The notes under the pieces were generated by a model. The model was given only the letters and a program-made list of their open reading frames with translations, was not told where the DNA came from and did no database searches. The position numbers and the translations under genes were made by a program. Positions 213 through 23,191 of a stretch of 32,881 nt of DNA are shown here, in pieces. Source of the stretch: Akkermansiaceae bacterium (lineage in GTDB: Bacteria > Verrucomicrobiota > Verrucomicrobiia > Verrucomicrobiales > Akkermansiaceae); contig JANXMQ010000200.1 of assembly GCA_025354565.1 (NCBI GenBank), positions 1 through 32,881 of the forward strand. Direction: 5' to 3'. Within the stretch, counting starts at the first letter, position 1. Each line of letters starts with the position of its first letter.

Positions 213-1313
213 TCACAAATAAGCCCTGAGCTCGCGCATCCTGCGACCCTGCCACTCGATGACGTCAGTGCCCTTGAGGTGTTGGTCTGCGATTTTCAGA
301 TTAAACTCGATGACGCTTCTAGGGTGTTCGACCACGACGTTGAGGGCTGAGAACTCCAAGTCGGGATTGGCAACAAAAATGCCCTTGATGTAGGCAAGCA
401 CGTCGGCTTTGCCTTCGAGGCGTTTGACGGAGGGGTCTTCCAAGGCGAAGCCCTCGTGGCACATGGCGGAGACCCCCGCGAGGTTGCGGGAGTTGAAGAA
501 GTCGACATATAGCTGGGTGAGGGTGCGGATGAGGTCGTTTCCCTGGAGCGGGGGTGCGCCATCCACCCGTCCCTGCTCGTAGAGGTCGGTGGCCTTGAAG
601 AACTCGAGATCCTCGGGCACACCGAGACCATACATGCCGTAGTATTCATGGCCGGTGCGCATGACGACGATTTTTCCACCTTCCTCGATGAGTTGGTTGT
701 AGGTGGGGGCCACGTAGAACTCATTGTTGACGCGCAAGCCCCGTTTGATCATGTGCTCGGCGGCTCGGACGTAGTCGGCACCGCGCCGGAAGTTGTAGAT
801 CCCGACGGTGGCCTCGTTGCTGACCACCTGTTTTTCGACGACCTCGCTGACTGTGCCCAGCTCATTCATGCGACAGTAGGACCACTTCGGGTGGTCAGCA
901 TCAAATGTCATAATGAGCCCCGCAGCCTGCTGACGATCCAACTCGGCGAGGTAGGTGTCGATGTCGAGTTCGACGAACTGATCCGCGTTCGCGATCATCA
1001 GCCGGTCGTCGTTGTTGATGTATTCCTTGGCGAGTAGGACGGTGCATGCCGCGCCTTCGGTGACTTCATTGACCGTCACGATGTGACAGCCAGGGCAGAG
1101 TGTGTGCAAGGTGTCTGGCACCTCAGGAAAGCGTTCGAGGTGCTCGTTTAGACAGATGAAAGTGAACTGATGGGGCTGTGAGGGGGTAACGTTTTCGATG
1201 ACCCATTGGATCATCGGCTTACCTCCTATGGGGATCAGCGGTTTGGGCACGGTGAAGCCCGCATTGGCGAATCGGCTGCCTTTGCCAGCCATTGGAACGA
1301 CGATTTGAATCAT
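213..1313 (-). CDS. Sugar-phosphate nucleotidyltransferase fused to a C-terminal NTF2/SnoaL-like domain
   Basis: This 366-residue protein has an N-terminal nucleotidyltransferase fold of the sugar-1-phosphate type. The signature runs M8-A-G-K-G-S-R14 followed by P-K-P-L at about 23-26, and an N-A-D-Q segment near residue 110 supplies the metal-binding Asp. It should couple NTP to a phosphorylated sugar or polyol in the cytoplasm; the substrate is unknown. Residues from about 256 to the end resemble a SnoaL/NTF2-like alpha+beta cone (Y-V-D-F-F-N, then F-A-L-E-D-P), an unusual addition to this enzyme class. The ATG overlaps the stop of the upstream cupin gene by four bases (ATGA), so translation is probably coupled. 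It is the last gene of the five-gene left-hand module, and its catalytic domain is paralogous to the protein at 1639-2397. Enzyme class is fairly sure; the role of the C-terminal domain is unknown. Confidence 0.88.
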   Translation of the reverse strand: MIQIVVPMAGKGSRFANAGFTVPKPLIPIGGKPMIQWVIENVTPSQPHQFTFICLNEHLERFPEVPDTLHTLCPGCHIVTVNEVTEGAACTVLLAKEYINNDDRLMIANADQFVELDIDTYLAELDRQQAAGLIMTFDADHPKWSYCRMNELGTVSEVVEKQVVSNEATVGIYNFRRGADYVRAAEHMIKRGLRVNNEFYVAPTYNQLIEEGGKIVVMRTGHEYYGMYGLGVPEDLEFFKATDLYEQGRVDGAPPLQGNDLIRTLTQLYVDFFNSRNLAGVSAMCHEGFALEDPSVKRLEGKADVLAYIKGIFVANPDLEFSALNVVVEHPRSVIEFNLKIADQHLKGTDVIEWQGRRMRELRAYL

Positions 1314-1642
1314 GGTAATTGTCCTTTCATGTATTTGTCATGGGTGGCGCCAGGGATCTTGACTGCAACAGACACAGTGTCCTTGAGTGCGCGGAAGTCA
1401 GTACCTTCGCCAGGCTCCATGACGATAATGTCGCCCTTGACGTAGATCACCCCGTTCATCTCCACCTCGCCACTGACGATCACCGTGTATTCGGTTGCGA
1501 TTTTATGATAGTGCCACTGGTCATAATCTCCGGTTTTGTATTCCTTCACGGCCACCTCGACATCTTCCGTGGCGTGCATGGTGGGGGAGAAGTTGCCGAT
1601 GAACCATCCCAGTTTCATGTCATCCAGTTTTGCGTGTTTCAT
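1310..1642 (-). CDS. Small cupin-fold protein
   Basis: A 110-residue single-domain cupin. Motif 1 is well kept: G38-D-Y, then H44, H46, E51 and G58, which is the usual His-His-Glu metal-binding pattern. Motif 2 (G70-D with P-G-E-G) lacks the final His normally seen as P-x-G-x2-H, so metal binding may be incomplete, or the protein may bind a sugar phosphate without catalysis. It overlaps both neighbours by four bases (ATGA on each side) and sits between two paralogous nucleotidyltransferases, which argues for a shared pathway. Known possibilities for small cupins in polysaccharide loci are isomerase, epimerase or sensor; none can be chosen from sequence alone. Confidence 0.85.
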   Translation of the reverse strand: MKHAKLDDMKLGWFIGNFSPTMHATEDVEVAVKEYKTGDYDQWHYHKIATEYTVIVSGEVEMNGVIYVKGDIIVMEPGEGTDFRALKDTVSVAVKIPGATHDKYMKGQLP

Positions 1643-2397
1643 GATGAAATGGATCCGTAGCGATTTGATGCGAGTGTGGCAGAGTAGGCCTGGACGTCGG
1701 AGGGAGTCGCAAGCGACCGGTAGCCGGTTCGATCAATCGGGTGGATGCCGATGCGTGCCTGTTTTAAGATCATTTCATTGAGAGTGGGGCAAATGTAGAA
1801 AAGCCCGTCCAAGTGAGCGTCTTTTTTCAGCATCTCCATGGCCGCCCGGACAAAGTCGCTGCCCTTGGCGAAGTAGTAGAATCCTGCGGTCGCGAATTTG
1901 CTGATCGGCCGCTTTTCCGCAGTTTCGATCACCATGCCCTCGGGGTTGCATTTTACGAATGACCAGCGTGGGTGTATGTCCTCGAACACTACGACGCCAG
2001 CATCCCATTTTTCCCGTTGGAAATGCCTGATGATGCCCGCGAGGTCCACCCCCTTGAGAATTTGATCTCCGTTGGTGATGATCAGCGGTTCGTTGTTGTT
2101 GATATAGTCCACGGCGAGAAGGGCGCTACATGCGGCCCCGGAAGTCGTCTCGTTGATTTCAAGGACCGTGATGTCGGGGTCCATCAGTTGCAGGACCTTG
2201 CCGGTATGGTGTTTTCGATTTTCGTCGCGCCGGACCGCGCAGATAAAAGTGGCACCAATAGATTTGAGGGGTTGCAAGGCCTCCATTACATGCTGGATCA
2301 TTGGCTGCCCTGCCATTTCGGCTAGGTTCTTGGGATAGCTGTAACCCGCCTCTTTGAAGGCTTGGCTAGAACCCGACATGAGTACGAGCACGTTCAC
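1639..2397 (-). CDS. Degenerate sugar nucleotidyltransferase homologue
   Basis: A 252-residue nucleotidyltransferase-fold protein paralogous to the catalytic domain encoded at 213-1313. Shared stretches include A-G-[FY] before the P-K motif, G-[KQ]-P-M-I-Q, N-x-D-Q, and a His-Pro-[KR]-Trp-Ser segment. The nucleotide-binding loop is altered: where the paralogue has A-G-K-G-S-R-F, this one has S9-G... more exactly S-G-S-S-Q-A-F at residues 8-14, losing the second Gly and the Arg that contacts the triphosphate in this family. P-K-P-L has become P-K-N-L. It may bind sugar phosphate without making a nucleotide sugar, or use a different donor. The start is GTG and overlaps the HAD stop codon (GTGA); the 3' end overlaps the cupin gene. 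Homology is clear; activity is uncertain. Confidence 0.85.
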   Translation of the reverse strand: MNVLVLMSGSSQAFKEAGYSYPKNLAEMAGQPMIQHVMEALQPLKSIGATFICAVRRDENRKHHTGKVLQLMDPDITVLEINETTSGAACSALLAVDYINNNEPLIITNGDQILKGVDLAGIIRHFQREKWDAGVVVFEDIHPRWSFVKCNPEGMVIETAEKRPISKFATAGFYYFAKGSDFVRAAMEMLKKDAHLDGLFYICPTLNEMILKQARIGIHPIDRTGYRSLATPSDVQAYSATLASNRYGSISS

Positions 2398-3029
2398 GCG
2401 TTCCTCCCTTCCGCTAGACGGATATGGCTCACGATGCCGTCTAGAGTTACGTCAGTAATCTCGCCAATAATCATGAGGTGGGTGCCGGCCGCACGTGCAG
2501 CGGCGATGCCGTGCTCATTGTCCTCCAGCACGAGAGTTTCCTCTGGTTTTACCCCGAGCATGGCCATCGCCATGATGTAGATTTCCGGATCAGGTTTGCC
2601 ATGTTTCACGTCCTGATTGCTGACGATGCCTTCAAGGTATTGATCGAGGTTACTCTTTTGCATCATCAACTCGATGCTGTTGCGGATGGAATTCGAAGCA
2701 ACGGCCATTTTATAGCCCATGGAGCGAAGATGGGAGAGCGCATATTCATGTTGGAACAGTGGTTTGCAGCGCGCATGCACCACTTCGGTAGTGTAGATCT
2801 GCTTCAGATCGTTAAGAAATCCGTGCAGGGAGACTGGTAGTCCGTGTTCTTTGCTCAACATTTCGAGTTTCTTGCGAGTGGGCAGTCCGTCAAAAGTTAC
2901 AAGATGATCGTACCGGCTGATGTTGAATCCGAAGTGATTCAGTGCACGGTTCAGAGCTTCGTAATGCCAGTCTTTGGCATCAATGAGTACGCCGTCCATG
3001 TCAAAGATCACGGCTTTGATTTGGTTCAT
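2394..3029 (-). CDS. HAD-superfamily phosphatase (beta-phosphoglucomutase-like subfamily)
   Basis: A 211-residue haloacid dehalogenase-fold hydrolase. Motif I is D10-M-D12-G-V; motif II is the Ser in A-V-A-S-N-S; motif III is the Lys of K-H-G-K-P-D-P; motif IV is L-E-D-N-E-H-G. An alpha-helical cap lies between motifs I and II, as in the PGMB/GPH group. It probably removes or moves a phosphate on a small sugar or polyol. The ATG at 3029 was preferred over an upstream in-frame TTG at 3041 because the family begins directly with the motif I strand. It starts 8 bases after the GDPD-like gene and overlaps the next gene (GTGA). Substrate is not predictable. Confidence 0.9.
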   Translation of the reverse strand: MNQIKAVIFDMDGVLIDAKDWHYEALNRALNHFGFNISRYDHLVTFDGLPTRKKLEMLSKEHGLPVSLHGFLNDLKQIYTTEVVHARCKPLFQHEYALSHLRSMGYKMAVASNSIRNSIELMMQKSNLDQYLEGIVSNQDVKHGKPDPEIYIMAMAMLGVKPEETLVLEDNEHGIAAARAAGTHLMIIGEITDVTLDGIVSHIRLAEGRNA

Positions 3030-3037
3030 AGGTTGGT

Positions 3038-3670
3038 TCAAAGATTGAAGTAGGATTGGGCTTCCTCTGGGATATCAGAGCACAACAGGAGCGATGGATG
3101 TGAGTGAATGGTGCTTGCCGCCAACCGCTCCCAGAAATTTAGGTGGGGTCTGCCATGTAGCTCGGGAGAAACGAGGCAAACTTGTTTTCCAGCATCGAGG
3201 TGCCGTTCGATCGTTTCAGGGATCAACCACTTATCATCAAAAAAGGCATCCATCCAGACACCGGCAGCCTCACGGTAGAAATTCGGCTCAGGTTCGAGAT
3301 CGCTCTGGCGGGTGAATACGCGTAGGCCGACCCTTAACGACATCACGGCATCGGGGACGGACATGTCAAATAGAAAGTAGTTTTCAATGCCATGTGTCTC
3401 GAATGACTGTTTAATAAGATTTTGCAGTCCGTCGGCTTTGATATTGGCGGCTAAGATGAGGGAGGGATCTTTCTTTGCGAGCGCCCGCAGCATGTAGTCA
3501 GCAAGCAATGATTCCATTCCGGGTGGGTCGTGTGAAATTACTAAACTGCCGCAATGATCTCTGAAATCGGTTTCAGTGCCGAATCCCAATTCAAACGACC
3601 TCTCGAAAGATTTTATGGAATTCTTTGGGCAATATTCGTTCCAGTAACCGCGGTGGCTTATAATGATCAT
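3038..3670 (-). CDS. Divergent glycerophosphodiester phosphodiesterase-like protein
   Basis: A 210-residue TIM-barrel protein of the GDPD superfamily, shorter than typical GDPDs. Recognisable elements are H6-R-G, N17-S, E33-T-D35 and H47-D48, matching the HRG, PEN[ST], ExD and HD motifs. Two differences stand out. The Glu of P-E-N-[ST] is Lys16, and the strand that normally carries a metal-binding Glu before Ile-Lys reads A-A-N76-I-K. The C-terminal half carries F-T-R and V-S-P-E-L-H-G-R blocks. No signal peptide is visible, so it should act in the cytoplasm. It is the first gene of the five-gene module, 135 bases downstream of the polymerase gene. It could hydrolyse or form a phosphodiester on a sugar-linked intermediate; ordinary glycerophosphodiester turnover is less likely. 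Confidence 0.8.
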   Translation of the reverse strand: MIIISHRGYWNEYCPKNSIKSFERSFELGFGTETDFRDHCGSLVISHDPPGMESLLADYMLRALAKKDPSLILAANIKADGLQNLIKQSFETHGIENYFLFDMSVPDAVMSLRVGLRVFTRQSDLEPEPNFYREAAGVWMDAFFDDKWLIPETIERHLDAGKQVCLVSPELHGRPHLNFWERLAASTIHSHPSLLLCSDIPEEAQSYFNL

Positions 3671-3805: not shown

Positions 3806-5386
3806 TCAAGCACCCTGCCTGCCGCTTCCGGCCAATCGATCCTCCTTGCGAAGCCGGTTTGAGGCCCCAAGCACGAAGGGAATGTGACGCTGAATGACGT
3901 AGGCCGGAAGCGGAAGATTGTTTTCCAGCAAGCGCAACATCCCGACCGATAGCAGAAATCCCCCCGAACCTGTTTTGAAGTCACCGAAAATAAGAACGAA
4001 GTAAACCGGTGCGATGACCAGCGGAATTCCCAAATACAACGCGAGAGGATACCATTCCGTTCCCCGGCAGCGCAGGATTTGACGGTGGGCATGAACTGCT
4101 AGGCGAATCATGGCAGTTACGAAGAAGATAAGGCCACTGCCCCCGATGACCCGGATCGTGGAAACTGGACCGCTGTGGTAGTCACCATTTGTGAGAATCG
4201 TATCGCGGTGGTTGTCAAATCCCGAGATCCCGGCTCGTGCTCCCTGACGTTGATTTCGCTGTTCCATCAACTCCGTAGAGGTGAAACCAAGTCCGTCGCC
4301 GATCCACTTGTTGTGAATCCACCGATCTGATAGCAGCGCCTCGCGCCAGATATCAAAGCGCCATTCGCTGGAGCCTGTGGCATCGTCCTTATAGCGTCTT
4401 TCCCAAGTTCCTGGAAGGAAGGTGAGCGAGCGCTGGATGTTTGGAGGAAGCGGGTACAGGCTATTCACGATTGCTAAAACAGCCAATCCACCGATGCCAC
4501 CGAGGATGGAGATCGCGAGGCCGGAGATACCACTGCGATAGGCGATTCCGATTAAGAACGTAAAGCTCACGGTAATGATGCCGTTTCTAAATCCAGAATA
4601 TGCAGCAGTTACGAATGCCACCATAACGAGAATCGCCCACAACGGACGGGTCAGGGCTCTGACCGGCGAGATGAAGGCGGAAATCCAGAGTGCCAAGCTA
4701 CCGCTCAACCCCAGCAGGAAGTCCACGCGGGTTGCGACCTTGTCGTCAATCACTTGGCTATCGAAGCCGACGTCGTCGGCGGAATCACCGTTAGTTTCAC
4801 CCGTGTAGTAGCCGATGCTGGGTATATAATTGCCAAGGATTGAGATTGCTGTGCTGGTTAAAGTCCCGATGATTGATAGTCGAAGAATCCACTTGAGTTG
4901 GTCGGGTGGGACAATCAAGCCACCTAACAGGATTGCGCTTAGAAGGGAGATCGCGTATAAAGCATAGCCTTTTCCGCCCACGGTATCCCCGCCGAATAGA
5001 TTCACTCCTACGGGATTGCGCACATAAACTTGAAAAACCAAGAGTGTGAGAACCACCACCCAGAATTCGAGTTCCGTCCAGCGCAACGCGAAGGGCAGTT
5101 TCCGCATGAGAAAGAGCAGCGAGCAAAATACGAGAACGAGGATTTGAGCCAGAAGCAGGGTGGTCGGCTGACCAGGAATGCGTAATTGGATGTTGATCGC
5201 GGTCATCAAGGGAATCAGCAACCAAATTTTGCGACCTAGGGCGAGGCAGGTGATCAACACCGCCGCCGTGATTACCTGCAGGATTGTTTCAATCTGATTG
5301 GTGACGATGCTAAGTCCGAGCCAGATCGCGAGAAACAATCCGGCGATCAGGATAATGATACCTTGGATGGAGCGGGAATTGAACAT
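3806..5386 (-). CDS. O-antigen polymerase/ligase-like membrane protein (Wzy/WaaL type)
   Basis: A 526-residue inner-membrane protein with about ten to twelve hydrophobic segments. A long, largely hydrophilic loop lies in the C-terminal half (roughly residues 310-410), the layout of Wzy polymerases and WaaL ligases. The loop contains W-R-F-D-I-W-R-E-A and a G-D-G-L-G-F segment followed by a G-D-Y-H-S-G-P stretch, where this class places its periplasmic His. It should polymerise repeat units or attach the polymer to its acceptor at the periplasmic face. The gene is alone between 118- and 135-base spacers inside the polysaccharide locus. Polymerase and ligase cannot be separated by sequence alone, so no symbol is given. 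Confidence 0.8.
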   Translation of the reverse strand: MFNSRSIQGIIILIAGLFLAIWLGLSIVTNQIETILQVITAAVLITCLALGRKIWLLIPLMTAINIQLRIPGQPTTLLLAQILVLVFCSLLFLMRKLPFALRWTELEFWVVVLTLLVFQVYVRNPVGVNLFGGDTVGGKGYALYAISLLSAILLGGLIVPPDQLKWILRLSIIGTLTSTAISILGNYIPSIGYYTGETNGDSADDVGFDSQVIDDKVATRVDFLLGLSGSLALWISAFISPVRALTRPLWAILVMVAFVTAAYSGFRNGIITVSFTFLIGIAYRSGISGLAISILGGIGGLAVLAIVNSLYPLPPNIQRSLTFLPGTWERRYKDDATGSSEWRFDIWREALLSDRWIHNKWIGDGLGFTSTELMEQRNQRQGARAGISGFDNHRDTILTNGDYHSGPVSTIRVIGGSGLIFFVTAMIRLAVHAHRQILRCRGTEWYPLALYLGIPLVIAPVYFVLIFGDFKTGSGGFLLSVGMLRLLENNLPLPAYVIQRHIPFVLGASNRLRKEDRLAGSGRQGA

Positions 5387-5504
5387 AGGCGGGCGAGGAA
5401 AGTGGTTAGATTAGAGCGAATGATTGGTCAGGACGATTGGCTAAAAGAGACGTTCCATCGTTTGTTTGGCCATGTTGAGTGGTGGAACCTGAGAGAAACA
5501 GAAC

Positions 5505-6341
5505 TCAGCAAAATGGCCGGCAGCAAATTCCGGCAGGCGGGGAAATGATTTCATGATTGGTATTACTGTGAACCAATCCGACCAGACTGTCACTGCGGAA
5601 CAGGGAGGGAATGCCAAGTGTTTCAATAATTTTCAAACCTGCCATGACTAGCTGCCATGGGATGGGCATATAGAATCGAGAGTGATTGGATCGTTTGGAG
5701 ATGGATTTGAGGATGGCCAAAAGCGGGACGGAGACGGGATGAGTCAAGGCATGCACGGTGGTGGATTCCGACGGCGGGGATTCCGCGATGGCCACGATGG
5801 TCGCCGACAAATCCGCCTCATGGATCATGAATTGGCGGAGGTTCGCGCCGCCGCTGAGAAAGGGCACGACCGGCGATCTTGCCACCAGTTTTTCCAAGTT
5901 TCCCATGACACCGCCGGATGTTTCGCCCCAAACCAGACCTAGACGGACGACGATGGCTCCGAGTGCGAGAGCTTCCTTTTCAATCATTCGTTTGGCTTTG
6001 CCATAATTGGATCGGCAGCCTTCATAGGAATTCATTGAGCTGATGAAAATCAGGTGCCCGACGTTGGCGTTCTTGGCGGCTTTGAGTAGGGCCACGCTTG
6101 GAGCGACATTGCGATCGAGGATTTCCTGCCAAGTGCGCGGAGCAAAATCGTAAGCGGCGTGGACCAAGACATCCACCTTATCCCATGGCAAAAGCCGGGG
6201 ATCATTTCCCAAGGCATAGGAAACCCAGGGTGCCGCGCACGGGCGACGACTCAATGCCAACACTTCGTGGCCGTGAGCCCGGAAACAGTTTGAAATGCAA
6301 GTGCCGACATAGCCGGATGCGCCGGTGATCGCGACTGTCAT
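5505..6341 (-). CDS. NAD-dependent epimerase/dehydratase (extended SDR)
   Basis: A 278-residue extended short-chain dehydrogenase/reductase. The N-terminal Rossmann motif is T6-G-A-S-G-Y-V-G, and the catalytic pair is Y113-x3-K117 preceded by Ser residues near 101. It should epimerise, reduce or dehydrate a nucleotide-linked sugar. A longer open frame runs upstream, but the ATG at 6341 is preferred: it begins at the beta-strand of the NAD domain and overlaps the stop of the GMC oxidoreductase by four bases (ATGA). That coupling suggests the two redox proteins act on the same intermediate. The last ~30 residues are atypical for the family. The substrate cannot be inferred. Confidence 0.88.
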   Translation of the reverse strand: MTVAITGASGYVGTCISNCFRAHGHEVLALSRRPCAAPWVSYALGNDPRLLPWDKVDVLVHAAYDFAPRTWQEILDRNVAPSVALLKAAKNANVGHLIFISSMNSYEGCRSNYGKAKRMIEKEALALGAIVVRLGLVWGETSGGVMGNLEKLVARSPVVPFLSGGANLRQFMIHEADLSATIVAIAESPPSESTTVHALTHPVSVPLLAILKSISKRSNHSRFYMPIPWQLVMAGLKIIETLGIPSLFRSDSLVGLVHSNTNHEIISPPAGICCRPFC

Positions 6342-7936
6342 GGTGGATCGAGTTGGCCGGCGATGCTCGCGATGCGGTGGGCGTTGGCCATCACGCTGAA
6401 GGTGATCGAGGTGGCCGGGATGCTTGGCAGCACGGAGGCATCCACCAAATGCACCCGGTCCATCATCGGCAGTCTGCCGATGAAATCCGTCCCGAGAGTT
6501 TGGGGATGTTTGCCCATCGGAAAGGTGCCACCGCTGTGGTAACCGCTGCCGGGCTTGGGAAATTGCAGGCCGGGCAGCAATGGTATGGCACGGAGATTGA
6601 GTGCCTGTTTTAGCAGCTTCCAACCGACTCGCAGGGTGGTGGCCAGAGCCTTGTTCGATTTCTGGATCCGGGCATCGAGAAAAACTTTTCCGTCAGAGGC
6701 TTTTTTCAAGGTCAGTGCGATTGATCCGGATTCTTTGGAGTGGATGAAGCCTTGGGCAATTAACAAGCGGCCAAGGAAGTGGCGGCGAAATCCGGAGAAC
6801 CGCAGCGGGAGACCGAGGAATGTCTGCTTGAGTTCATGATGCAGGAACGAACTGTAACCATAAATCTGCAGGTGGACCATGTGCGCACTAACCGATTGAT
6901 CATCCATCTCCAAAAACGCTTGAGACGAGGTGTGCATGTCTTCAGTTTCCACGCCACTGGTCATTGCGAAGCGGAGTAGCGGATAGATAAAATACTGGCT
7001 GTCGAGCAGGCTGATCGGTTGATCAAATATTTCTAACGAATGAAGGACGATTTTTGCCGTGGGCAGAACCCCTGCGCCGACGAATAGCCGTGAGGCCTGA
7101 TAGGAAAAGGGAATGTCTTTCGCGAGATGCCGACCTGTGACGATCACCTCGTTCCCAACTTGTTCAAATTTTTCGACAAGGTGATTGTCGAGATAGGTGA
7201 CATCGCCATTGCGGATGAGGGTTTCAAGGGTTTGTGCGGATGAATAAATCAAGCCATACGGGCATCCAGAAAGGCAGAGTGTGCACTTGGCGCACTCGCG
7301 GTGGGAGGCATCCCCCGTGGCCCTGATTGCCAAGCGGCTGCGACCGAAATAAACCCCCGAGCGGCGAAGTGCCGCGCGTTTTTTTTCCAGATCCTTGAGT
7401 AAAGCTTGTCCTTGGTTGCTGGGTTCGAGCGGACTTTTCTGGTTGGAGTAGATGGGAAGAATTTCTTCCAAATCGTCTTGAATTCCGGTGCCAGGGACAA
7501 AGTCCATGACGGCCCGATAATGTGGTGCTAGGTCTTCCAGCGAGATCGGCCAATCCGCGATGTCTGCTTGGCGGTATGGTAACAGGGAGGCGCCCCAAAT
7601 ATTGCTTAGTCCGCCTCGCGCCAGCGAATGGTTGAATCCCGCGTTTTTCTTCCATCTAACATCGATGGCTGCACGGCGGGTATCGATACTGTATGGCGAT
7701 CCGTATGACAGTTTGGAATGGTTGGTCTCATGGGTGGTGGGTCGCTTCCCGATGACGGACTCGAGATCCACTCCGCTCCAGGAAGCGGGTTCCTGGACGG
7801 ACATCCGATTGACGGCCGCTTGCTGATCGGCTTCCAAACGGGTGCCCACGTCCAGAATCGTCACGTGGTGTCCTTGATGGACGAGCGCCATGGTGGCGGA
7901 AATCGCCGCCGGGCCGGATCCAATGACGACGATCAT
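6338..7936 (-). CDS. GMC-family FAD-dependent oxidoreductase with a cysteine cluster
   Basis: A 532-residue flavoprotein. Its N-terminal FAD-binding motif is G6-S-G-P-A; a second GMC signature G-G-L-S-N-I-W-G-A lies at 108-116. The C-terminal block reads H-S-G-G-T-F-P-M-G, then D-A-S-V-L-P and A-N-A-H-R, typical of glucose-methanol-choline oxidoreductases. Residues 215-225 hold C-x2-C-x2-C-x3-C-P, a pattern able to bind an iron-sulfur cluster and known from some long-chain-alcohol and sugar dehydrogenases of this superfamily. There is no obvious export signal. It sits 16 bases after a GT-C-like gene and overlaps the epimerase gene, suggesting oxidation of a sugar hydroxyl or lipid-linked intermediate. 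Family is certain; substrate and electron acceptor are unknown. Confidence 0.9.
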   Translation of the reverse strand: MIVVIGSGPAAISATMALVHQGHHVTILDVGTRLEADQQAAVNRMSVQEPASWSGVDLESVIGKRPTTHETNHSKLSYGSPYSIDTRRAAIDVRWKKNAGFNHSLARGGLSNIWGASLLPYRQADIADWPISLEDLAPHYRAVMDFVPGTGIQDDLEEILPIYSNQKSPLEPSNQGQALLKDLEKKRAALRRSGVYFGRSRLAIRATGDASHRECAKCTLCLSGCPYGLIYSSAQTLETLIRNGDVTYLDNHLVEKFEQVGNEVIVTGRHLAKDIPFSYQASRLFVGAGVLPTAKIVLHSLEIFDQPISLLDSQYFIYPLLRFAMTSGVETEDMHTSSQAFLEMDDQSVSAHMVHLQIYGYSSFLHHELKQTFLGLPLRFSGFRRHFLGRLLIAQGFIHSKESGSIALTLKKASDGKVFLDARIQKSNKALATTLRVGWKLLKQALNLRAIPLLPGLQFPKPGSGYHSGGTFPMGKHPQTLGTDFIGRLPMMDRVHLVDASVLPSIPATSITFSVMANAHRIASIAGQLDPP

Positions 7937-7952
7937 AACCGGCGGACTGTGA

Positions 7953-9890
7953 TCATGGATCTATCATCGGTTTCTCCGGGCAGAGAACACTCCAAATTGC
8001 GGGCGGGTTGGACGCGTAGATCCGAATACGGGTAGTCCCGATAATTCTCCAGCCGATCTTTTCGGCCAGTTGTTCGGGCGTGATTCCGAACCGGTCATTG
8101 CATCCCCAGTCCGAAGTGACAATGGCGTCAAAGCCACGGGTGTCCGGCAATTGCTCCCCCAAGGCGGGAGCAACCTCCCTGACGGTTCTCGTTCCCAAAG
8201 GCAGCCAAAACGAGTATTCCGAATCATCACTGGTGCCAGCGAATCCTATCGACGCGGTATCTGGAGGTAAAAGTTCGCGGACGAGGCGCTGGGCGTCGGA
8301 ACGATTCGCATACACGTTGTAAACGATCTCCATGCGGCTCAATATGCCGTTGTTGATTCCGTTAGCTTTGAGTTTTTCGATGATTCCGGTCATCGGCAGC
8401 AGGGGGCGGGCAGGATTCAGGAGGAGTGCGGGAATGATTGGTAGTAGCAGGATCAGGCTGCACCAGCGCCACCAAGGGAGGGTAAATGTAAGACCTGAGC
8501 GAATCAGCAACAAAGGCAACCCGATGAGTCCCACATAATAAGGAGCGATCAAGCGCGGTGCACCGCAATTTCCAAGTTTCATCATGTAAACCAACAAGGC
8601 TATCCAAAACCCCGCTCCGACCGCTCCGCCAAGGGTGAAGAGTTGGCTCGTCTGGATGTGTCGAATCGCGCCAGCCAGTCCTAACAGTAGCGCCGCACTG
8701 ACCCCAAGCCCAAGACCTGAGTTTTCCTCGGATGCCAATTGCGGATGAGTGAATCTGAAATCAGCGAAGCCGTCTTTAATGTATTGTAAGGGCGGGTGGA
8801 CGAGTTTGTCGTTGAACCACTGGTTCACTTTGTCTGCCGGTGGAAAGACGGCCGGCGCGAGACTGGCACTTGCAAGTAACAACGTGTTTCCCGCCAGTCC
8901 AATCGTAGGATTTTTGATCTTGAGCAAACTGTCCGGGGCACCCGCCCAGTCACCCGTGTGGCGTAAATTGGCAACTGCCAGCGGGGCAAACGAAATCACG
9001 CTGGCAACACCAGCCGCAAGGGTGGCGGTCACGATCAATCGCGGATGTTGGAACAATACCACCAGCAGGCAAATCGAAACCGGCAGCAGCAGCGGAAGGT
9101 TGCTGGCCTTGGTTCCGGTCATCAACGCCGCAGAGAACACCGAGAGGATGACATCGAGCGGCTTGCCGGATTGAATGGCTTTCAATGCAAACAGCAGGGC
9201 TGCCAATACATAGACGGTGGCGATCAGATCGTTGCCGATGCTGCCCGCTTCCATCACAAAGCACGACGCGCAGGGCAGGATCCACATCCAGGTGGCGGCG
9301 ATGGATCGCTTCACGCCGAGCGCGGTGAAGACCGAAAAAACCAAACCTGGCAGCAGCAGATAGGAGATCACATTGATCAGGAACGCCAACCTCAGGGTGT
9401 GAAATACCGACAAACCTGGCAGCATCAGACACTCGAATCCAGTGGCGCTGAAATCCATCCGCGGATCCGTGCCACCGATCCAATGCCAACGCTCCGAAGA
9501 CAGCCAATGAAGAATTCTCGGGATCCGATAACTGAAAGCATCAAAGTTAGTTGGAGCGTGGATTGCCCCACCGATCAGAGCCGCACTGGCACAAATGAGA
9601 TAGAGCGAAGGGAATAGTTTTTTAAACCGACGCCATCTCACGCCCTTCAAGAACCAAAGGCTTCCATTTAATCGATTGTAGCCGTAAAGCGAACCTGAAA
9701 TACCGAGGAACAACACGATTGCATTGCCGGTGCGGTTCAACTGCCCGATGAAGGAGAGAATCAGCGCTCCCGCTGTTAGCCAGGATGAAAGCAGGATCCA
9801 AATGGCGGTGACACCCGCTGTCCACGAGGAATCCGCAGATCTGTTTTCTGATTGATGCGGCACGGTTTTGGATCGGAATCTGAGATTCAA
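7953..9890 (-). CDS. Polytopic GT-C-like glycosyltransferase (GT39/ArnT-related)
   Basis: A 645-residue protein with about a dozen membrane segments and a C-terminal soluble tail of about 130 residues. The first periplasmic loop carries F-D-A-F-S-Y-R-I-P-R, matching the acidic loop motif (D-x-x-[ST]-Y-x-x-P-R) of GT-C enzymes that use polyprenyl-phosphate sugars. It should transfer a sugar onto the growing polymer at the periplasmic face. The preceding GT2 gene, 9 bases upstream, could supply that lipid-linked donor. The assigned start is TTG at 9890, just after the GT2 stop; an in-frame GTG at 9863 is an alternative and neither has a clear ribosome-binding site. Fold class is likely; acceptor and sugar are unknown. 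Confidence 0.72.
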   Translation of the reverse strand: MNLRFRSKTVPHQSENRSADSSWTAGVTAIWILLSSWLTAGALILSFIGQLNRTGNAIVLFLGISGSLYGYNRLNGSLWFLKGVRWRRFKKLFPSLYLICASAALIGGAIHAPTNFDAFSYRIPRILHWLSSERWHWIGGTDPRMDFSATGFECLMLPGLSVFHTLRLAFLINVISYLLLPGLVFSVFTALGVKRSIAATWMWILPCASCFVMEAGSIGNDLIATVYVLAALLFALKAIQSGKPLDVILSVFSAALMTGTKASNLPLLLPVSICLLVVLFQHPRLIVTATLAAGVASVISFAPLAVANLRHTGDWAGAPDSLLKIKNPTIGLAGNTLLLASASLAPAVFPPADKVNQWFNDKLVHPPLQYIKDGFADFRFTHPQLASEENSGLGLGVSAALLLGLAGAIRHIQTSQLFTLGGAVGAGFWIALLVYMMKLGNCGAPRLIAPYYVGLIGLPLLLIRSGLTFTLPWWRWCSLILLLPIIPALLLNPARPLLPMTGIIEKLKANGINNGILSRMEIVYNVYANRSDAQRLVRELLPPDTASIGFAGTSDDSEYSFWLPLGTRTVREVAPALGEQLPDTRGFDAIVTSDWGCNDRFGITPEQLAEKIGWRIIGTTRIRIYASNPPAIWSVLCPEKPMIDP

Positions 9891-9899
9891 TGACCGGCT

Positions 9900-10844
9900 T
9901 CAGCGGTTTCTCCAGTGAAGCAATTGCAGCGCGTGATTGAAGCGTTGCCCTGCGGCCAGTCCATCGAGAATCACGGCCACGGAAAAGCTGAGCATCGCCA
10001 GGATGGATAACCCGGAGGCAAGTATCACCAGAGGGATGTGCAGGATTTTGTCCGTGTGTATGTATTCCATGACCGGGATGGCACCTGCCGCGAGAGCCGC
10101 TGCGGCGAACGCAAAAGAGCACAGGCTGAAAAACAAAAGCGGCCTATATTTGACGAAGATTGAAAAAATGGTCTTCAGCACAAGTACACCGTCGGTGAGA
10201 GTGTTGAGCTTGGAGAAGGACCCCTCGGGGCGGCTTCGATAATCAGTCGGCACTTCAACGATGAAATAGCCCTTGTCGAGGGCGTGGATGCTCATCTCCG
10301 TCTCCAGTTCGAATCCATCGGAGAGGATCGGATAGTTTTTCACGAAGCGTTTGGACATGACCCGATAGCCGGTGAGAATGTCGCCGAGTGAACCTTTGAA
10401 CAATGAATTGATCAGCCGGCGGGTGAGGTTATTTCCAAAATCATGCAGCGGTCGCTTGTTTTCGCGCTTGTAAACTCCGGAGCTATGGCGGTTCCCGCAG
10501 ACGATATCGGCGCGACCATTCAGAACCGGGGCAAGCAAAGCGGGTAGATCGCTGGCGGGGTAGGTCATATCGGCATCCGCCATCACATAGACGTCGGCTT
10601 CAATCTCCATGAACGCCTTGCGAATTGCCGCGGCCTTCCCTCCGCGCGATTCCCTGAGAACATAGCCCTTGCAGCCGATTTGTTGATAGGCTTCGCGGGC
10701 AAGTTCATAAGTTCGATCTTCCGATGCGCTGTCGATGACGTATATCTCCGCATCCGGACAAGCACCGAAGAAGTCCCTCATGGTGTCCACAACCGTCAGT
10801 TCCTCGTTATAGGCGGGAAGAATGATGGCAATGGTTTTGAACAT
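9900..10844 (-). CDS. GT2 family glycosyltransferase with C-terminal membrane helices (polyprenyl-phosphate sugar synthase type)
   Basis: A 314-residue GT-A enzyme. The nucleotide-sugar fold begins at once (I-I-L-P-A-Y-N-E-E at 7-15), the catalytic Asp-x-Asp is D90-A-D92, and about two hydrophobic helices follow after residue 215. This resembles DPM1/GtrB-like enzymes that load a sugar from a nucleotide donor onto polyprenyl phosphate at the inner membrane. The ATG at 10844 is chosen because it sits directly before the first strand; an upstream ATG at 10895 would add 17 unconserved residues. It lies between the YfhO-like and GT-C-like genes, a natural donor-synthase/acceptor-transferase arrangement. 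The sugar is unknown. Confidence 0.87.
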   Translation of the reverse strand: MFKTIAIILPAYNEELTVVDTMRDFFGACPDAEIYVIDSASEDRTYELAREAYQQIGCKGYVLRESRGGKAAAIRKAFMEIEADVYVMADADMTYPASDLPALLAPVLNGRADIVCGNRHSSGVYKRENKRPLHDFGNNLTRRLINSLFKGSLGDILTGYRVMSKRFVKNYPILSDGFELETEMSIHALDKGYFIVEVPTDYRSRPEGSFSKLNTLTDGVLVLKTIFSIFVKYRPLLFFSLCSFAFAAAALAAGAIPVMEYIHTDKILHIPLVILASGLSILAMLSFSVAVILDGLAAGQRFNHALQLLHWRNR

Positions 10845-10908
10845 TGGACACGGAGTGGAAGAACCGGGTGCGACGCTGCCGCAGCGGTGAATCATTTGAG
10901 AATGGTGG

Positions 10909-13152
10909 TTAGGATCGGACCGGGCGTTCGGATTCGCGGCGCACTAAGCCAGAAAGCAGGAAGCTCCCACAAAGCAGAATGCCTGTGGCCATGAGGGGGC
11001 GTGCGATTTCCATAGAACGGGGGGTATAATTCAGTTCAATCATCCCGTCCGATGTCTTGTCTGGAGCGCGGATGGTGGATAGACACGGCTCGATTTTTTC
11101 TATTTCAATCGTGCTTTTTCCGTTCCTCGCAGTCCAACCTGGGTAATAGGTATCCGTTCTCACGATGACTTCGGCATCGGGCAATGCCGAGGTATCCAAC
11201 ACAAGCCGGTTGTGACTTTCCTTTACGATTTTGACCGGCAGTGCTGCCTTGCTTTTAGAGGATCTGAACCGGGAAGGATGGGTTCCGGTAATTGGCTGTA
11301 ACGATGTTCCTTGGCCGGCTATGGAGAGCGAGAGGAAATCGCTCCGCCAGTCGGGAGGGACGGGCGCGGCAGTGGAGGGATACCTAAAGAGGCTGGTGGG
11401 TTGCAAAGCGGAATAACCGTGGAGAGAATGAGCTTGATAGAACGCTGCGTAAGCCATCGGGAAAATCATGTCGCCGCCTCGGGTTGCCGACTCGTCGATC
11501 CGGAGACCTCCGTCGAGTTTTGCAATCGCCTGATTTTGGCTGGGACCGCCTGCAAGCAGCTTGTGCCAAAGTTCTATCGACTGGCGGGGGCGAAAGCGCG
11601 CGTGGAACAACAATACTGGCAATGCGCTGACGAGCAGTGACAGCAGCAATCGTTTCCGGACGTCGCCTGGGTTCTGCGCCGATAATGCGGCCGCCAGCAC
11701 GATGACGGCAATCAGAGTGATGGCACATTCAGGGTTCGCGACGGAGACTTCTTGCGGGAAATTGTTGATTTGGAATCGCCGTAGGTTGGGGGCGCTGGGC
11801 AGGGTATTGTTCGATTTGTCGACGCTGATGATCTTCGCTTCGATTTTCTCCTTGAAGAGCGGATAGACCCACCAGGCCAAGCCGCTTGTCATTCCGCCGA
11901 TGGCGAGCATCGCAAATAGGAAGATCTTCGCGAGCTGCGGATGGGGGCGGGCTTTGCGTTCGAGGATGGCTTGGATGGCCAATGCCGCCAGAAGAATCAG
12001 TCCCATCCCGGCAAGTGCTGCACAGCGGGGGTAGAGGTATCTCACAAGGGGGGTCGAGACGATGAGAAGATAGGTAGCCACAAGGATGGTTGCCTGGCAG
12101 ATGCCGCCACCGAGTTTTCCTTTTTCCCTGCGGAAGGTCCACGCGGCCCAAAAGGCAAGGAGCAGCGCCACGGGGCCGCAGAACCACTGGAACGAAATCC
12201 CATTCATTTGGACCAGCCTGGCTGCGTCCAAAGTGCGGAAGGTTCCGAACATCCAAGGGTAGATTGCCGTTAGGGAAAATGGAGCCGCCAGCAACTGTTG
12301 ATACCATGCGACGGAGTTGTTTGCAGTCCGGCTGCTCAGCAGAAAGAACTCGACTTGGTTGCAGAGCACTGGAAACGCGACAAGTGCGCCAATGATCCCG
12401 GACAATGCTGTAACTCCGATCGCTTTGGGAAATCGCCCCCGGTCCTTGATGGCGACAGCGATGAGAAAAGTTAGAGCGAAGACTGGCAGATAAGCATGGG
12501 ATTGCAGGTTCCCCGCATAGAAAATGAGTCCGCACAAAAGCCCGCCAAGTCCCGCATTGGGCAGAAGGCGGCCATGAACTGCTCTTATCCAGATGATCCA
12601 CAGAAACGGGAAGTAGAGAAACGAACCCTGAATCCAAGGATGGCCGAAATAGACCGTGAACCATCCCGCGAACTGATAGATCAAAGCGAGGATGGCGGCA
12701 ACCAGGCAATCGATGCTGAAGTATCTCAACAAAAGGAACATGCCTAGGCCCGTGACGATTCCGCGTAAGATGTAGTTCCAGTTGTAGGCCAACTCGAAGG
12801 GCAATGTCGCATAACACAGCATGCGAATCGGATCCGTTCCGTTGATGTGAGCGTCTGCTAGTAGAGGACGGCCACCATAAGTGTAGGGATCCCACCAGGG
12901 GATTTCTCTGGAGTGGTAAGCCTTGTAAATGGAGTATTGGAGCGGAAGATCGTATGTAAACTGGTCGATGATGTGATGGTTTTCGGGAATCCCGTCTGCG
13001 GCGGGATCCATGAACTTGTATTGACTGAAAATATTAGGCCCGAGATCTAGTGGGGCAAGCATGCTCTTCCCCCACAACGCATCGCTGTAAATCAATGCAG
13101 ACAGCAGCACACTTGCCAACAGGAAGCAGAGGATTTGTTGGTAGATCCGCAT
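10909..13152 (-). CDS. YfhO-family polytopic membrane protein
   Basis: A 747-residue protein with at least ten membrane segments and a large C-terminal soluble domain, the layout of the YfhO family. The N-terminal loop contains D-L-P-L-Q-Y and H-S-R-E-I-P-W-W-D-P-Y-T-Y-G-G, a motif block characteristic of that family, whose members resemble GT-C glycosyltransferases. Known YfhO proteins help glycosylate teichoic acids using lipid-linked sugars, so a periplasmic side-chain transferase role is likely here. It is 21 bases downstream of the methyltransferase gene and 64 bases upstream of the chosen start of the GT2 gene. A long open frame on the same strand (11729-12895) is an out-of-frame shadow. 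Confidence 0.82.
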   Translation of the reverse strand: MRIYQQILCFLLASVLLSALIYSDALWGKSMLAPLDLGPNIFSQYKFMDPAADGIPENHHIIDQFTYDLPLQYSIYKAYHSREIPWWDPYTYGGRPLLADAHINGTDPIRMLCYATLPFELAYNWNYILRGIVTGLGMFLLLRYFSIDCLVAAILALIYQFAGWFTVYFGHPWIQGSFLYFPFLWIIWIRAVHGRLLPNAGLGGLLCGLIFYAGNLQSHAYLPVFALTFLIAVAIKDRGRFPKAIGVTALSGIIGALVAFPVLCNQVEFFLLSSRTANNSVAWYQQLLAAPFSLTAIYPWMFGTFRTLDAARLVQMNGISFQWFCGPVALLLAFWAAWTFRREKGKLGGGICQATILVATYLLIVSTPLVRYLYPRCAALAGMGLILLAALAIQAILERKARPHPQLAKIFLFAMLAIGGMTSGLAWWVYPLFKEKIEAKIISVDKSNNTLPSAPNLRRFQINNFPQEVSVANPECAITLIAVIVLAAALSAQNPGDVRKRLLLSLLVSALPVLLFHARFRPRQSIELWHKLLAGGPSQNQAIAKLDGGLRIDESATRGGDMIFPMAYAAFYQAHSLHGYSALQPTSLFRYPSTAAPVPPDWRSDFLSLSIAGQGTSLQPITGTHPSRFRSSKSKAALPVKIVKESHNRLVLDTSALPDAEVIVRTDTYYPGWTARNGKSTIEIEKIEPCLSTIRAPDKTSDGMIELNYTPRSMEIARPLMATGILLCGSFLLSGLVRRESERPVRS

Positions 13153-16826: not shown

Positions 16827-18071
16827 TCAGATAATCATCCCGGCGGCGACGGTTTCGTTGGTGCCGGGATCGATGAGGATGAAGGAGCCGGTGATGCGGT
16901 TGCGGCGGTAGGAATCGTAAATGAGGGGGACCGCAGTGCGCAGAGAAATGCGGCCGATGTCGTTCATCGAGAAGCCTGTGACGCCTTCGATTTTATGGAG
17001 GGTGTTGATATCCACATGATATTTCACTTCCTGCACAATTGCTTTGGTTTCCTGGGTGGTGTGGCGAACGACTAATTTCGCGTTGGGCGGCATCGGCTTG
17101 GAGGAGAACCAACAGATCATCGCCTCGATGTCTTGCTCGACGTGCGGAGGGTTGTTAGTTTTCACCAAGGTGTCACCGCGCGAGATGTCGATTTCATCGG
17201 TTAAGGTGATGCAGACTGACTGTGGGGCGAATGCTTCCTCCAGTTCGCCGTCCGGGCTGTGGATGGCCTTGACGCGGGTGGTGAAACCAGAGGGCAGGAC
17301 GGTGACTTCATCGCCGGGTTTGAAAATACCACCCGCCACGCGGCCAGCATAGCCGCGGAAGTCATGCCACTCGTCGCACATCGGGCGGATCACCCATTGC
17401 ACTGGGAAACGGGCATCGACGTGGTTTTCCTCGCCGCCGACATAGACGTTTTCGAGGTGATAGAGGAAGGTCGGACCTTGGTACCACGGCATGTGCTCGG
17501 ACTTGTCCACGACGTTGTCGCCGTTAAGGGCGGAAATCGGGATGTCCGTGATTTCCACAATGTTGTCGAGGCGTGAGGCGAACTCGCGGAAGTCCTTGAC
17601 GATTTTTTTGTAAACCTCTTCCGAGTAATCCACGAGGTCCATCTTGTTTACGGCGACGACGAGATGCTGGATGCGCAGCAGGTTGGCGATGAAGCTGTGG
17701 CGTTTGGTTTGTTCGATCACGCCCTTGCGTGCGTCGATGAGAATGATGGCCAAGTTTGCGGTGGAAGCTCCGGTCACCATGTTGCGGGTGTATTGGGTGT
17801 GGCCGGGAGTATCGGCGATGATGAATTTCCGCTTGGGGGTGGCGAAGTAGCGGTAAGCGACGTCGATGGTGATGCCTTGCTCGCGCTCGGCCTTCAAGCC
17901 GTCCGTTAGGAGGGCGAGATTGACGTTGCCATCGCCCCGGCGGCGGGAGGATTCCTCCATCGCTTCGAGTTGGTCTTCAAAGATGGATTTGGAATCATAC
18001 AATAGGCGGCCAATGAGGGTGGATTTGCCGTCATCGACGGAGCCAGCGGTGGTGAAGCGGAGAAGGTCCAT
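16827..18071 (-). CDS. cysN: Sulfate adenylyltransferase large subunit, GTPase
   Basis: A 414-residue translation-factor-like GTPase that drives ATP sulfurylase. The P-loop is G10-S-V-D-D-G-K-S17, G3 is D87-T-P-G-H91, and G4 is N142-K-M-D145; two beta-barrel domains follow. The protein is shorter than E. coli CysN (about 475 residues) but in the range of other bacterial forms, with no fused APS kinase. With CysD it makes adenosine 5'-phosphosulfate from sulfate and ATP. It follows cysD after 57 bases and cysC lies upstream. Its place in a polysaccharide locus suggests sulfate activation for sulfation of the polymer, though general assimilation is not excluded. Confidence 0.96.
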   Translation of the reverse strand: MDLLRFTTAGSVDDGKSTLIGRLLYDSKSIFEDQLEAMEESSRRRGDGNVNLALLTDGLKAEREQGITIDVAYRYFATPKRKFIIADTPGHTQYTRNMVTGASTANLAIILIDARKGVIEQTKRHSFIANLLRIQHLVVAVNKMDLVDYSEEVYKKIVKDFREFASRLDNIVEITDIPISALNGDNVVDKSEHMPWYQGPTFLYHLENVYVGGEENHVDARFPVQWVIRPMCDEWHDFRGYAGRVAGGIFKPGDEVTVLPSGFTTRVKAIHSPDGELEEAFAPQSVCITLTDEIDISRGDTLVKTNNPPHVEQDIEAMICWFSSKPMPPNAKLVVRHTTQETKAIVQEVKYHVDINTLHKIEGVTGFSMNDIGRISLRTAVPLIYDSYRRNRITGSFILIDPGTNETVAAGMII

Positions 18072-18128
18072 TTGGGAGAAAATTTGAAAATTAAGAGGTG
18101 AAATTGAAAACGAAGAAGGGCGGTTGAA

Positions 18129-19034
18129 TCAGAAGTAGCCTTCTTTTTTGCGGTCTTCCATCGCGGTTTCCGAGCGTTTGTCGTCGGAGCGGGTGCCGCG
18201 TTCGGTCTGGCGGGCGGCGGCGACTTCGGCGATGACGTCATCAAGATCCGCTGCAGTGGATTCCACGGCCCCGGTGCATGTGGCGTCGCCGATGGTGCGG
18301 AAGCGGACGACCCTGCGGGTGACGGGTTCGTGGTCCTGGGGTTTGAGAAACTTGGTGACGGCGAGGATCGAGCCGTTGCGCTCGAAGACGTCGCGTTCGT
18401 GAGAGAAATAGATGGATGGCAGTGGGATTTTCTCGCGTTTGATATACATCCAGATGTCCATCTCGGTGAAGTTTGAGAGTGGGAAAACGCGGAAGTGTTC
18501 GCCGGGGTTCTTGCGGCCGTTGAAAAGGTTCCAAAGCTCTGGCCGCTGGTTTTTCGGATCCCATTGGCCGAAGTCGTCGCGGTGGGAGAAGAAGCGTTCC
18601 TTGGCACGGGCCTTTTCCTCGTCCCGGCGACCGCCACCGAGGCAGGCGTCGTATTGGTTTTCCTCGATGGTATCGAGAAGGGTGACGGTCTGGAGTTTGT
18701 TGCGCGAGGCGTTCACGCCTTTTTCCTCAACGACCCGACCGCGGTCGATGGAATCTTGCACCGAGCCGACCACGAGATTGGCGCGGATCAGGTCCACGAA
18801 CTCATCGCGGTAGGTCATGGTTTCCTCGAAGTTGTGGCCGGTGTCGATATGGACGAGCGGAAACGGCATGCGTGCAGGCCAGAATGCCTTGCGGGCGAGC
18901 CACGCCATCACGATCGAGTCCTTGCCGCCGGAAAACAGCAGCGCGGGGTTTTCAAATTGGGCCGCCGTTTCGCGAAAGATGAAAATGGCTTCGGCTTCGA
19001 GCTGGTCGAGTTGGTCGAGTTGGTAGTTGGGCAT
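18129..19034 (-). CDS. cysD: Sulfate adenylyltransferase small subunit
   Basis: A 301-residue member of the PAPS-reductase/ATP-sulfurylase PP-loop family. The ATP pyrophosphatase loop is S-G-G-K-D-S at about 35-40, and the family-specific G-G-G-R-R-D-E-E-K-A-R-A-K-E-R block follows in the middle. It transfers AMP from ATP to sulfate when activated by CysN. The N-terminus contains a short repeated L-D-Q unit that aligns with the ordinary L-x-x-L-x-x-L-E-A-E start of the family. The gene is preceded by a 162-base spacer after cysC, the longest gap in the sulfate block, so it may have its own promoter. The identification is secure. Confidence 0.96.
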   Translation of the reverse strand: MPNYQLDQLDQLEAEAIFIFRETAAQFENPALLFSGGKDSIVMAWLARKAFWPARMPFPLVHIDTGHNFEETMTYRDEFVDLIRANLVVGSVQDSIDRGRVVEEKGVNASRNKLQTVTLLDTIEENQYDACLGGGRRDEEKARAKERFFSHRDDFGQWDPKNQRPELWNLFNGRKNPGEHFRVFPLSNFTEMDIWMYIKREKIPLPSIYFSHERDVFERNGSILAVTKFLKPQDHEPVTRRVVRFRTIGDATCTGAVESTAADLDDVIAEVAAARQTERGTRSDDKRSETAMEDRKKEGYF

Positions 19035-19108
19035 GGGACGAGGGCAATGAGGAAAATAGAGTGCTTTTGAGGTGGGAGAATCCTTCTCCGCTCGCTCAGA
19101 AGTGCGGG

Positions 19109-19149
19109 GGGATAGGCGGGGTTACAGCCGCAGTCAAGATTTAATTATA
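19109..19149 (-). promoter_or_regulatory. Possible promoter upstream of cysD
   Basis: On the minus strand a TTGACT box (19137-19132) is followed after 17 bases by TATCCC (19114-19109), a reasonable -35 with a weak -10. Just upstream a perfect TATAAT (19149-19144) occurs, but it has no matching -35 at the usual distance. Either could serve cysD, 75 to 110 bases downstream. This is a by-eye match only. Confidence 0.2.
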
Positions 19150-19196
19150 ATGTTGGGTGGAATGGTAAGGTATTGTGTGTGAGGCGCGGGCGGCGT

Positions 19197-19799: not shown

Positions 19800-19856
19800 G
19801 GGAATCAAATATAGTGTGCGCTGGTGGGGGAATGCGAGGGAATTTAATCCGCAGGA

Positions 19857-23134: not shown

Positions 23135-23191
23135 GGGTTTGGATAGAGGAAACTGGTAGTGATACCGCGCTTGGGCCAAGCGGAACGGGGC

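Follow-up and report, generated by a model that had tools for sequence, protein, structure and literature searches.

Nucleotide activation for surface glycans is a known kind of chemistry; Campylobacter jejuni HS:5, for example, makes CDP-6-D-glucitol by means of HS5.18 and HS5.17 (PMC10918830). As presented in the main text of that paper, a sugar phosphate is activated for the capsule in a route led by a nucleotidyltransferase, the enzymes being a PF01128 cytidylyltransferase and a PF01370 reductase, and the whole words HAD, phosphatase, cupin and phosphodiesterase are absent from that text. As far as the main text goes, CDP-6-D-glucitol synthesis is the closest characterised idea to the system described here, but it is made by other families. 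Our subject is a five-gene cassette encoding a relative of glycerophosphodiester phosphodiesterases (GDPDs), a HAD protein, two nucleotidyltransferase-like proteins (NTP1 and NTP2) and a cupin, found at positions 213-3670 of contig JANXMQ010000200.1 from an Akkermansiaceae bacterium; the whole stretch analysed, 32,881 nucleotides, is called the window. PF01128 gave just 0.018 with NTP2 and 0.041 with NTP1, below the cut-off, and PF01370 matched none of the five proteins. The earlier note on this DNA knew of no described pathway with such a set, and no description was found in the open-licence literature either, where the protein family name 'WavE' is indistinguishable from 'wave'.

All five reading frames were confirmed, on the minus strand. 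The GDPD-like TIM-barrel protein (210 residues, 3038..3670) was assigned by its motifs and an AlphaFold2 fold, and the HAD family IA protein, similar to beta-phosphoglucomutases and phosphatases (2394..3029), by Pfam, TIGR and PDB matches. NTP1 (1639..2397) has a nucleotidyltransferase fold without the GxGxR motif, as judged by Pfam and a motif check, and is followed by a small cupin of 110 residues (1310..1642; weak PF07883 match and alignment). NTP2 (213..1313; Pfam and motif) is a canonical nucleotidyltransferase (GKGSRF...PKP) with a C-terminal NTF2/SnoaL-like domain at about residues 262-366 (216..530), which matches a separate gene in Tropicibacter. The tight coupling claimed for these genes was borne out, with 4-base overlaps at HAD-NTP1, NTP1-cupin and cupin-NTP2 and 8 bases between the GDPD and HAD genes. 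The last figure assumes that the HAD gene starts at ATG 3029, which is preferred because the starts of homologues agree; the alternative start given by the open reading frame tool, TTG 3041, would produce a 4-base overlap with the GDPD gene.

The co-occurrence check proposed in the earlier note was run on 25 loci, comprising 22 that have the GDPD and HAD genes plus one or more NTP genes, together with the window, L057 and L058. The order GDPD-HAD-NTP1-cupin-NTP2 was contiguous in 11 of them (the window, L002, L004, L005, L007, L010, L023, L024, L041, L043 and L050), and homologues co-occur in Opitutae, Bacteroidales, Clostridia, Alphaproteobacteria and Gammaproteobacteria. Species genomes scanned with the GDPD-like protein yielded eight relatives out of 38 candidate stretches, from Opitutae, Rickettsiales, Clostridiaceae, two Bacteroidales, Oscillospiraceae, Phocaeicola and Caedibacter. 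Four of these (L002, L004, L005, L007) have the window order, L008 has NTP2 ahead of the cupin, and the remaining three (L003, L006, L009) are either short or not complete. Among plasmid records, 27 matched the GDPD-like protein, 27 the HAD (E 1e-20) and 27 NTP2 (E 1e-20; 24 of the 27 at 40% identity or more), and the three lists, compared by genus and not record by record, largely share their genera. The same set thus recurs in unrelated bacteria, which decides this check in favour of the note, and so is not a chance association.

Profile searches with the GDPD-like protein gave 11 strong matches in 1280 genomes: 4/337 in the window's phylum, Verrucomicrobiota, its own genome included, 3/345 in the phylum to which G343 (Bacteroidales) belongs, 2/349 in that of Caedibacter (G344) and 2/249 in that of Clostridiaceae (G339). 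Four of the 11 are sources of the queries, namely the window's genome and the three search centres, and one (G1034) is a Scandinavium plasmid already counted as L013. The HAD gene directly adjoins the GDPD gene in 10 of the 11 and lies about 6 kb away in Caedibacter; the GDPD-like family marks the cassette. A HAD scan of the window's phylum at E 1e-45 found only the window's own genome among 199, a sample evidently without the three other cassette genomes of the 337-genome scan. Three genomes of the same genus in the larger scan had no GDPD match, which suggests that the cassette was gained horizontally.

Distances between the proteins were compared in 20 loci, leaving out near or exact copies (L007, L055 and L042, of L005, L014 and L013), loci that were short or without a visible NTP2 (L003, L006, L009, L040), and L057 and L058. 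GDPD, HAD and NTP2 are each present in 20/20 of these tabulated loci, NTP1 in 19 by blast and the cupin in 14. Nine of the ten gene pairs had correlated distance matrices, with 0 to 3 of 2000 permutations reaching the observed value. Shared species descent could also yield such a correlation, but is unlikely to be its whole cause because the distribution is sparse and crosses phyla.

The GDPD-like protein matched no Pfam family at E up to 0.1, and hence not the curated GDPD family. An AlphaFold2 model built from nine homologues had a pLDDT of 94.7 and aligned with the GDPD 3no3 over 194 residues (Z 20.3, root-mean-square deviation 2.4 A), and Foldseek also returned a GDPD-type fold (E 3.5e-9); the model supports a GDPD-type TIM-barrel fold for the protein. 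In 12 aligned rows H6, R7, G8, E33, D35 and H47 are invariant, while the HD motif is HN in some rows. The protein therefore resembles the glycerophosphodiester phosphodiesterases 3no3 and 2pz0 in fold (Z about 20) and in its HRG/ExD/HD head, but differs in having only about 20% identity, no Pfam match, a cassette context, and an invariant N76-x-K78 (NIK) at the position of ExK. The E of ExK, which we take to be the third acidic metal ligand of GDPDs, is not kept, these positions having been placed by motif match.

The HAD protein matched PF13419 (E 8.5e-37) and passed the broader HAD-IA models TIGR01509 and TIGR01549. It scored below the curated cut-offs of both beta-phosphoglucomutase models (128 bits against 153.35 for TIGR02009, 101 bits against 189.4 for TIGR01990), and its best sequence match in the PDB was 3kbb, the TM_1254 phosphatase. 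Like the enzymes of both kinds it belongs to HAD family IA, with D14 and D16 invariant, but it forms a subfamily separate from the named beta-phosphoglucomutases; it may be either a mutase or a phosphatase, between which the motifs do not discriminate. The cupin matched PF07883 at E 3.9e-4 (20.5 bits, under the 27.2-bit cut-off). Its residues H44, H46 and E51, presumably the metal-ligand motif of cupins, are invariant in eight aligned rows.

NTP2 matched PF00483 (E 3.6e-15) and, in its tail, SnoaL_2/NTF2 (E 7e-11); NTP1 matched PF12804 (E 2.8e-9) and PF00483 (E 9.2e-9). The best PDB sequence match of both was 4evw (E 2.9e-16 and 2.9e-15, respectively), listed as a 'nucleoside-diphosphate-sugar pyrophosphorylase' and compared here by that name alone; its source we take to be Vibrio cholerae. 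Apart from L058, whose NTP2 is split over two frames and was left out of the count, GxGSR is carried by 12/12 NTP2 sequences and by 0/12 NTP1 sequences. NTP1 is thus a degenerate family, as had been indicated by the description of one nucleotidyltransferase as 'altered', and because GxGSRF is absent from all 12 copies but kept in all 12 of NTP2 it is probably a non-catalytic partner. The NTP2 tail shares 48% identity (E 2e-31) with the NTF2-family protein that the Tropicibacter cassette encodes as a separate gene, which indicates that the tail belongs to the cassette.

Several loci depart from the window arrangement. In L011, L014 and L051-L055 (Azospirillum, five Rhizobium/Sinorhizobium loci and Tropicibacter) the cupin's place is taken by NTP3, a third, degenerate nucleotidyltransferase-like protein (GxGSR in 0/5 sequences), and NTP1 and NTP2 are fused in one frame, or in direct tandem in L054. 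Fusions also join HAD to cupin in Caedibacter (L009) and HAD to NTP2 in cyanophage S-CAM9, with no GDPD gene within the stretch read. In the Scandinavium plasmid the position after HAD, where NTP1 would be expected, is taken by a frame of only 141 residues. The claim that the module is self-contained was overstated, given the seven loci with a replaced cupin and the S-CAM9 fusion. The Caedibacter GDPD gene and HAD-cupin fusion (L009, 1-14823) lie amid genes that we read as nonribosomal peptide synthetase-like and ABC-transporter-like, not in a polysaccharide locus. On the plasmids of Rhizobium tumorigenes and R. rhododendri (L014 and L055, about 4590-11131) the cassette lies behind, and in the same direction as, a set encoding an FGGY kinase, G3P dehydrogenase, a TIM barrel, TPI and RpiB, which we take to resemble erythritol catabolism.

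Relatives of parts of the cassette occur in phages. Two cyanophage stretches contained HAD and NTP relatives and no GDPD gene, and PHROGs include families matching GDPD, HAD and cupin. A phage origin of the cassette was considered and rejected, as at E 1e-3 the phage collection gave no match to the GDPD query and viral contigs contained no relative. In cyanophage Bellamy (L056, 6838-7995) a nucleotidyltransferase is fused to a LacAB/RpiB isomerase domain and is followed by a cassette-type cupin and then by a protein with two nucleotidyltransferase parts. The profile scans also returned nine weaker GDPD relatives, and seven of their neighbourhoods were read. Five (L044, L045, L046, L048, L049) contain a stretch matching the Bellamy two-nucleotidyltransferase protein, in one frame in L044, L046 and L049, together with an aldolase-like gene that we read as class II; L025 matches half of that protein, and L047 has neither the match nor the aldolase-like gene. 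The GDPD-like proteins of these five loci form a sister family, and the pairing of a GDPD-like protein with two nucleotidyltransferases is thus not confined to the cassette.

Among the relatives, neighbouring genes of polysaccharide type were seen. A WavE gene (PF07507-type) was present in 10 of the 25 loci, counting each of the near copies L005/L007 and L014/L055, and in neighbour clustering of a partly different set of 25 (L003 and L009 in place of L057 and L058) WavE was the commonest family after the cassette genes, at 9 loci. The family is rare: PF07507 was found in 1/198 genomes of the Bacteroidales phylum, the cassette genome G423 with WavE inside the locus, and in 2/299 genomes of the Caedibacter phylum (L066 and L067). 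A structure model of WavE was unusable (pLDDT 45.9).

Three WavE loci without the cassette carry a different HAD and a nucleotidyltransferase, and two of the three a kinase-like gene. On the Legionella sainthelensi plasmid (L059) the gene row is kinase-like, HAD, nucleotidyltransferase, WavE, WavE. In L067 (G866) three genes lie within about 5 kb of WavE. One encodes a small HAD, another a nucleotidyltransferase that has no Pfam match and matches its Legionella counterpart at 29%, and the third a protein of 513 residues in which Pfam recognises only a kinase-like EcKL region (1e-5) and in which we also read a degenerate nucleotidyltransferase part. The L059 kinase-like protein has no Pfam match and is related (29%, 106 bits) to the EcKL region of the fused L067 protein. 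In L066 fragments of three genes are adjacent: WavE, a nucleotidyltransferase (46 bits by blast) and what we read as a small HAD. L059 and L067 share with the cassette an NTP2-like nucleotidyltransferase, a HAD and a nearby WavE, to which L067 adds, as we read it, the degenerate NTP-like region; they differ in the small HAD of another type, the kinase-like gene and the lack of any GDPD or cupin match. As WavE loci without the cassette also show a HAD and a nucleotidyltransferase, WavE may use the product of such enzymes, which suggests that the cassette provides a donor of this kind by a different route. A fructose donor, prompted by Vibrio core fructose and WavE, was also considered, and the parts of PMC2627896 and PMC4807371 covered yielded nothing decisive.

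The interpretation to which we give an even chance is that the five genes form a cytoplasmic pathway to a nucleoside diphosphate derivative, NDP-X, where X is a sugar or polyol, for a surface polysaccharide. Observed are the gene set, its order and co-occurrence, the folds or family matches, the loss of the motif in NTP1 and the association with WavE; we infer every chemical step. Co-occurrence, correlated distances, gene fusions, polysaccharide-type neighbours and the WavE association speak for this interpretation. The GDPD-like enzyme would cut a phosphodiester to give X-phosphate, replacing the kinase of the kinase-HAD-NTP-WavE sets, and the HAD would prepare X-phosphate by phosphatase or beta-phosphomutase action. 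NTP2 would be the catalytic pyrophosphorylase (NTP + X-phosphate giving NDP-X and pyrophosphate), with NTP1 a non-catalytic partner subunit retaining the sugar-phosphate-binding half; the NTF2 domain and the cupin, or NTP3 where it replaces the cupin in seven alphaproteobacterial loci, may assist by isomerisation or binding. NDP-X would be used by a separate transferase, for which many relatives have WavE as the candidate. The part of the earlier note's proposal in which an activated sugar or polyol phosphate is made is plausible, and agrees with the enzymes present and with the polysaccharide-type loci of the relatives. Transfer onto the polymer found no support, since none of the five is a transferase and the candidate in the relatives is the neighbouring WavE. 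We are doubtful about a bolder reading of our own, an undescribed precursor route in which a GDPD-fold phosphodiesterase takes the place of a kinase and NTP2, with pseudo-subunits NTP1 or NTP3, supplies a new NDP-X to WavE-type transferases.

Several observations weigh against the pathway to NDP-X. Most loci were retrieved with GDPD or HAD as query, so that the constant presence of these genes is partly built in. Seven loci have another protein in the cupin's place, and NTP2-cupin distances were uncorrelated, with 258 of 2000 permutations reaching the observed value. WavE is not near 15 of the 25 loci, and PF07507 searches found none in cassette genome G343 or in the window's genome, where the control likewise had no match. 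L014, L051, L052 and L055 are not amid obvious polysaccharide genes, and L054 is without annotation. The idea of GDPD in place of a kinase is based on two loci, L059, where the protein has no Pfam match, and L067, and the pathway as drawn names no substrate, nucleotide or product.

An alternative along the lines of the earlier note, that NTP2 makes a CDP-polyol from which polyol phosphate is transferred to leave phosphodiesters in the polymer, we regard as a real but minor possibility. Such capsule pathways exist, CDP-6-D-glucitol being one (PMC10918830), phosphodiesters are the substrates of GDPDs, and the two Rhizobium cassettes stand behind a set that recalls erythritol catabolism. However, that catabolic neighbour was seen only in these two related plasmids among the loci read, neighbour clustering found no reductase or polyol-phosphate polymerase travelling with the cassette, whose frequent partner is WavE, and the HS:5 enzymes, in the main text cited, are of PF01128 and PF01370 and not PF00483. 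It is unlikely that NTP2 is the sole maker and that the GDPD and HAD proteins are repair enzymes clearing cyclic or misplaced phosphates that arise by decay of a labile NDP-X. The S-CAM9 fusion and the lack of a GDPD match in the phage collection would allow GDPD, NTP1 and cupin to be an add-on, but GDPD is present in 25/25 bacterial cassette loci, a count biased by its use as the main search seed. We think it very improbable that NTP1 and NTP2 are glycosyltransferases building a glycosyl phosphodiester: plasmid records label cassette parts 'hypothetical', 'HAD' and 'glycosyltransferase family 2', but Pfam and NCBIfam give nucleotidyltransferase families and no PF00535, and NTP2 keeps GxGSRF...PKP. 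That unrelated genes of different pathways are adjacent by accident can be virtually dismissed, as all that favours it is the variable placement in L009, L012, L013 and L022. The fusions, the correlated distances and the repeated appearance of the set in unrelated bacteria contradict it, the last strongly so for GDPD, HAD, NTP1 and NTP2.

Other genes of the window were noted in passing. A family scan placed an EF-Tu-type GTPase, a PAPS-reductase-family protein and APS kinase at 16827-19808 (minus strand) in the same locus; we read the first two as CysN-like and CysD-like, and these genes point to possible sulfation of the polymer. At 22052-23179 (minus strand), flanked by WecG-type and GDP-mannose dehydratase genes, lies a 375-residue protein with a PF01467 cytidylyltransferase-like N-terminus and a C-terminal part without a Pfam match. 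Upstream in the same locus, a protein resembling regulators (27144-27647, minus strand) has a 40% identical relative at 3933-4427 of the Opitutae stretch L002, which also bears the cassette. The Pasteurella capsule proteins BcbE and BcbF are presumably relatives of the NTP and small HAD proteins, for which a literature search gave no confirmation.

The cassette is sparse, yet it occurs on plasmids and in bacteria that are not related to one another. Should its product prove to be a new activated building block, the cassette would provide a handle on the donor used by WavE and help to predict glycan chemistry from sequence. The pseudo-nucleotidyltransferase partner offers an experimentally accessible example of a subunit whose nucleotide site has been lost.

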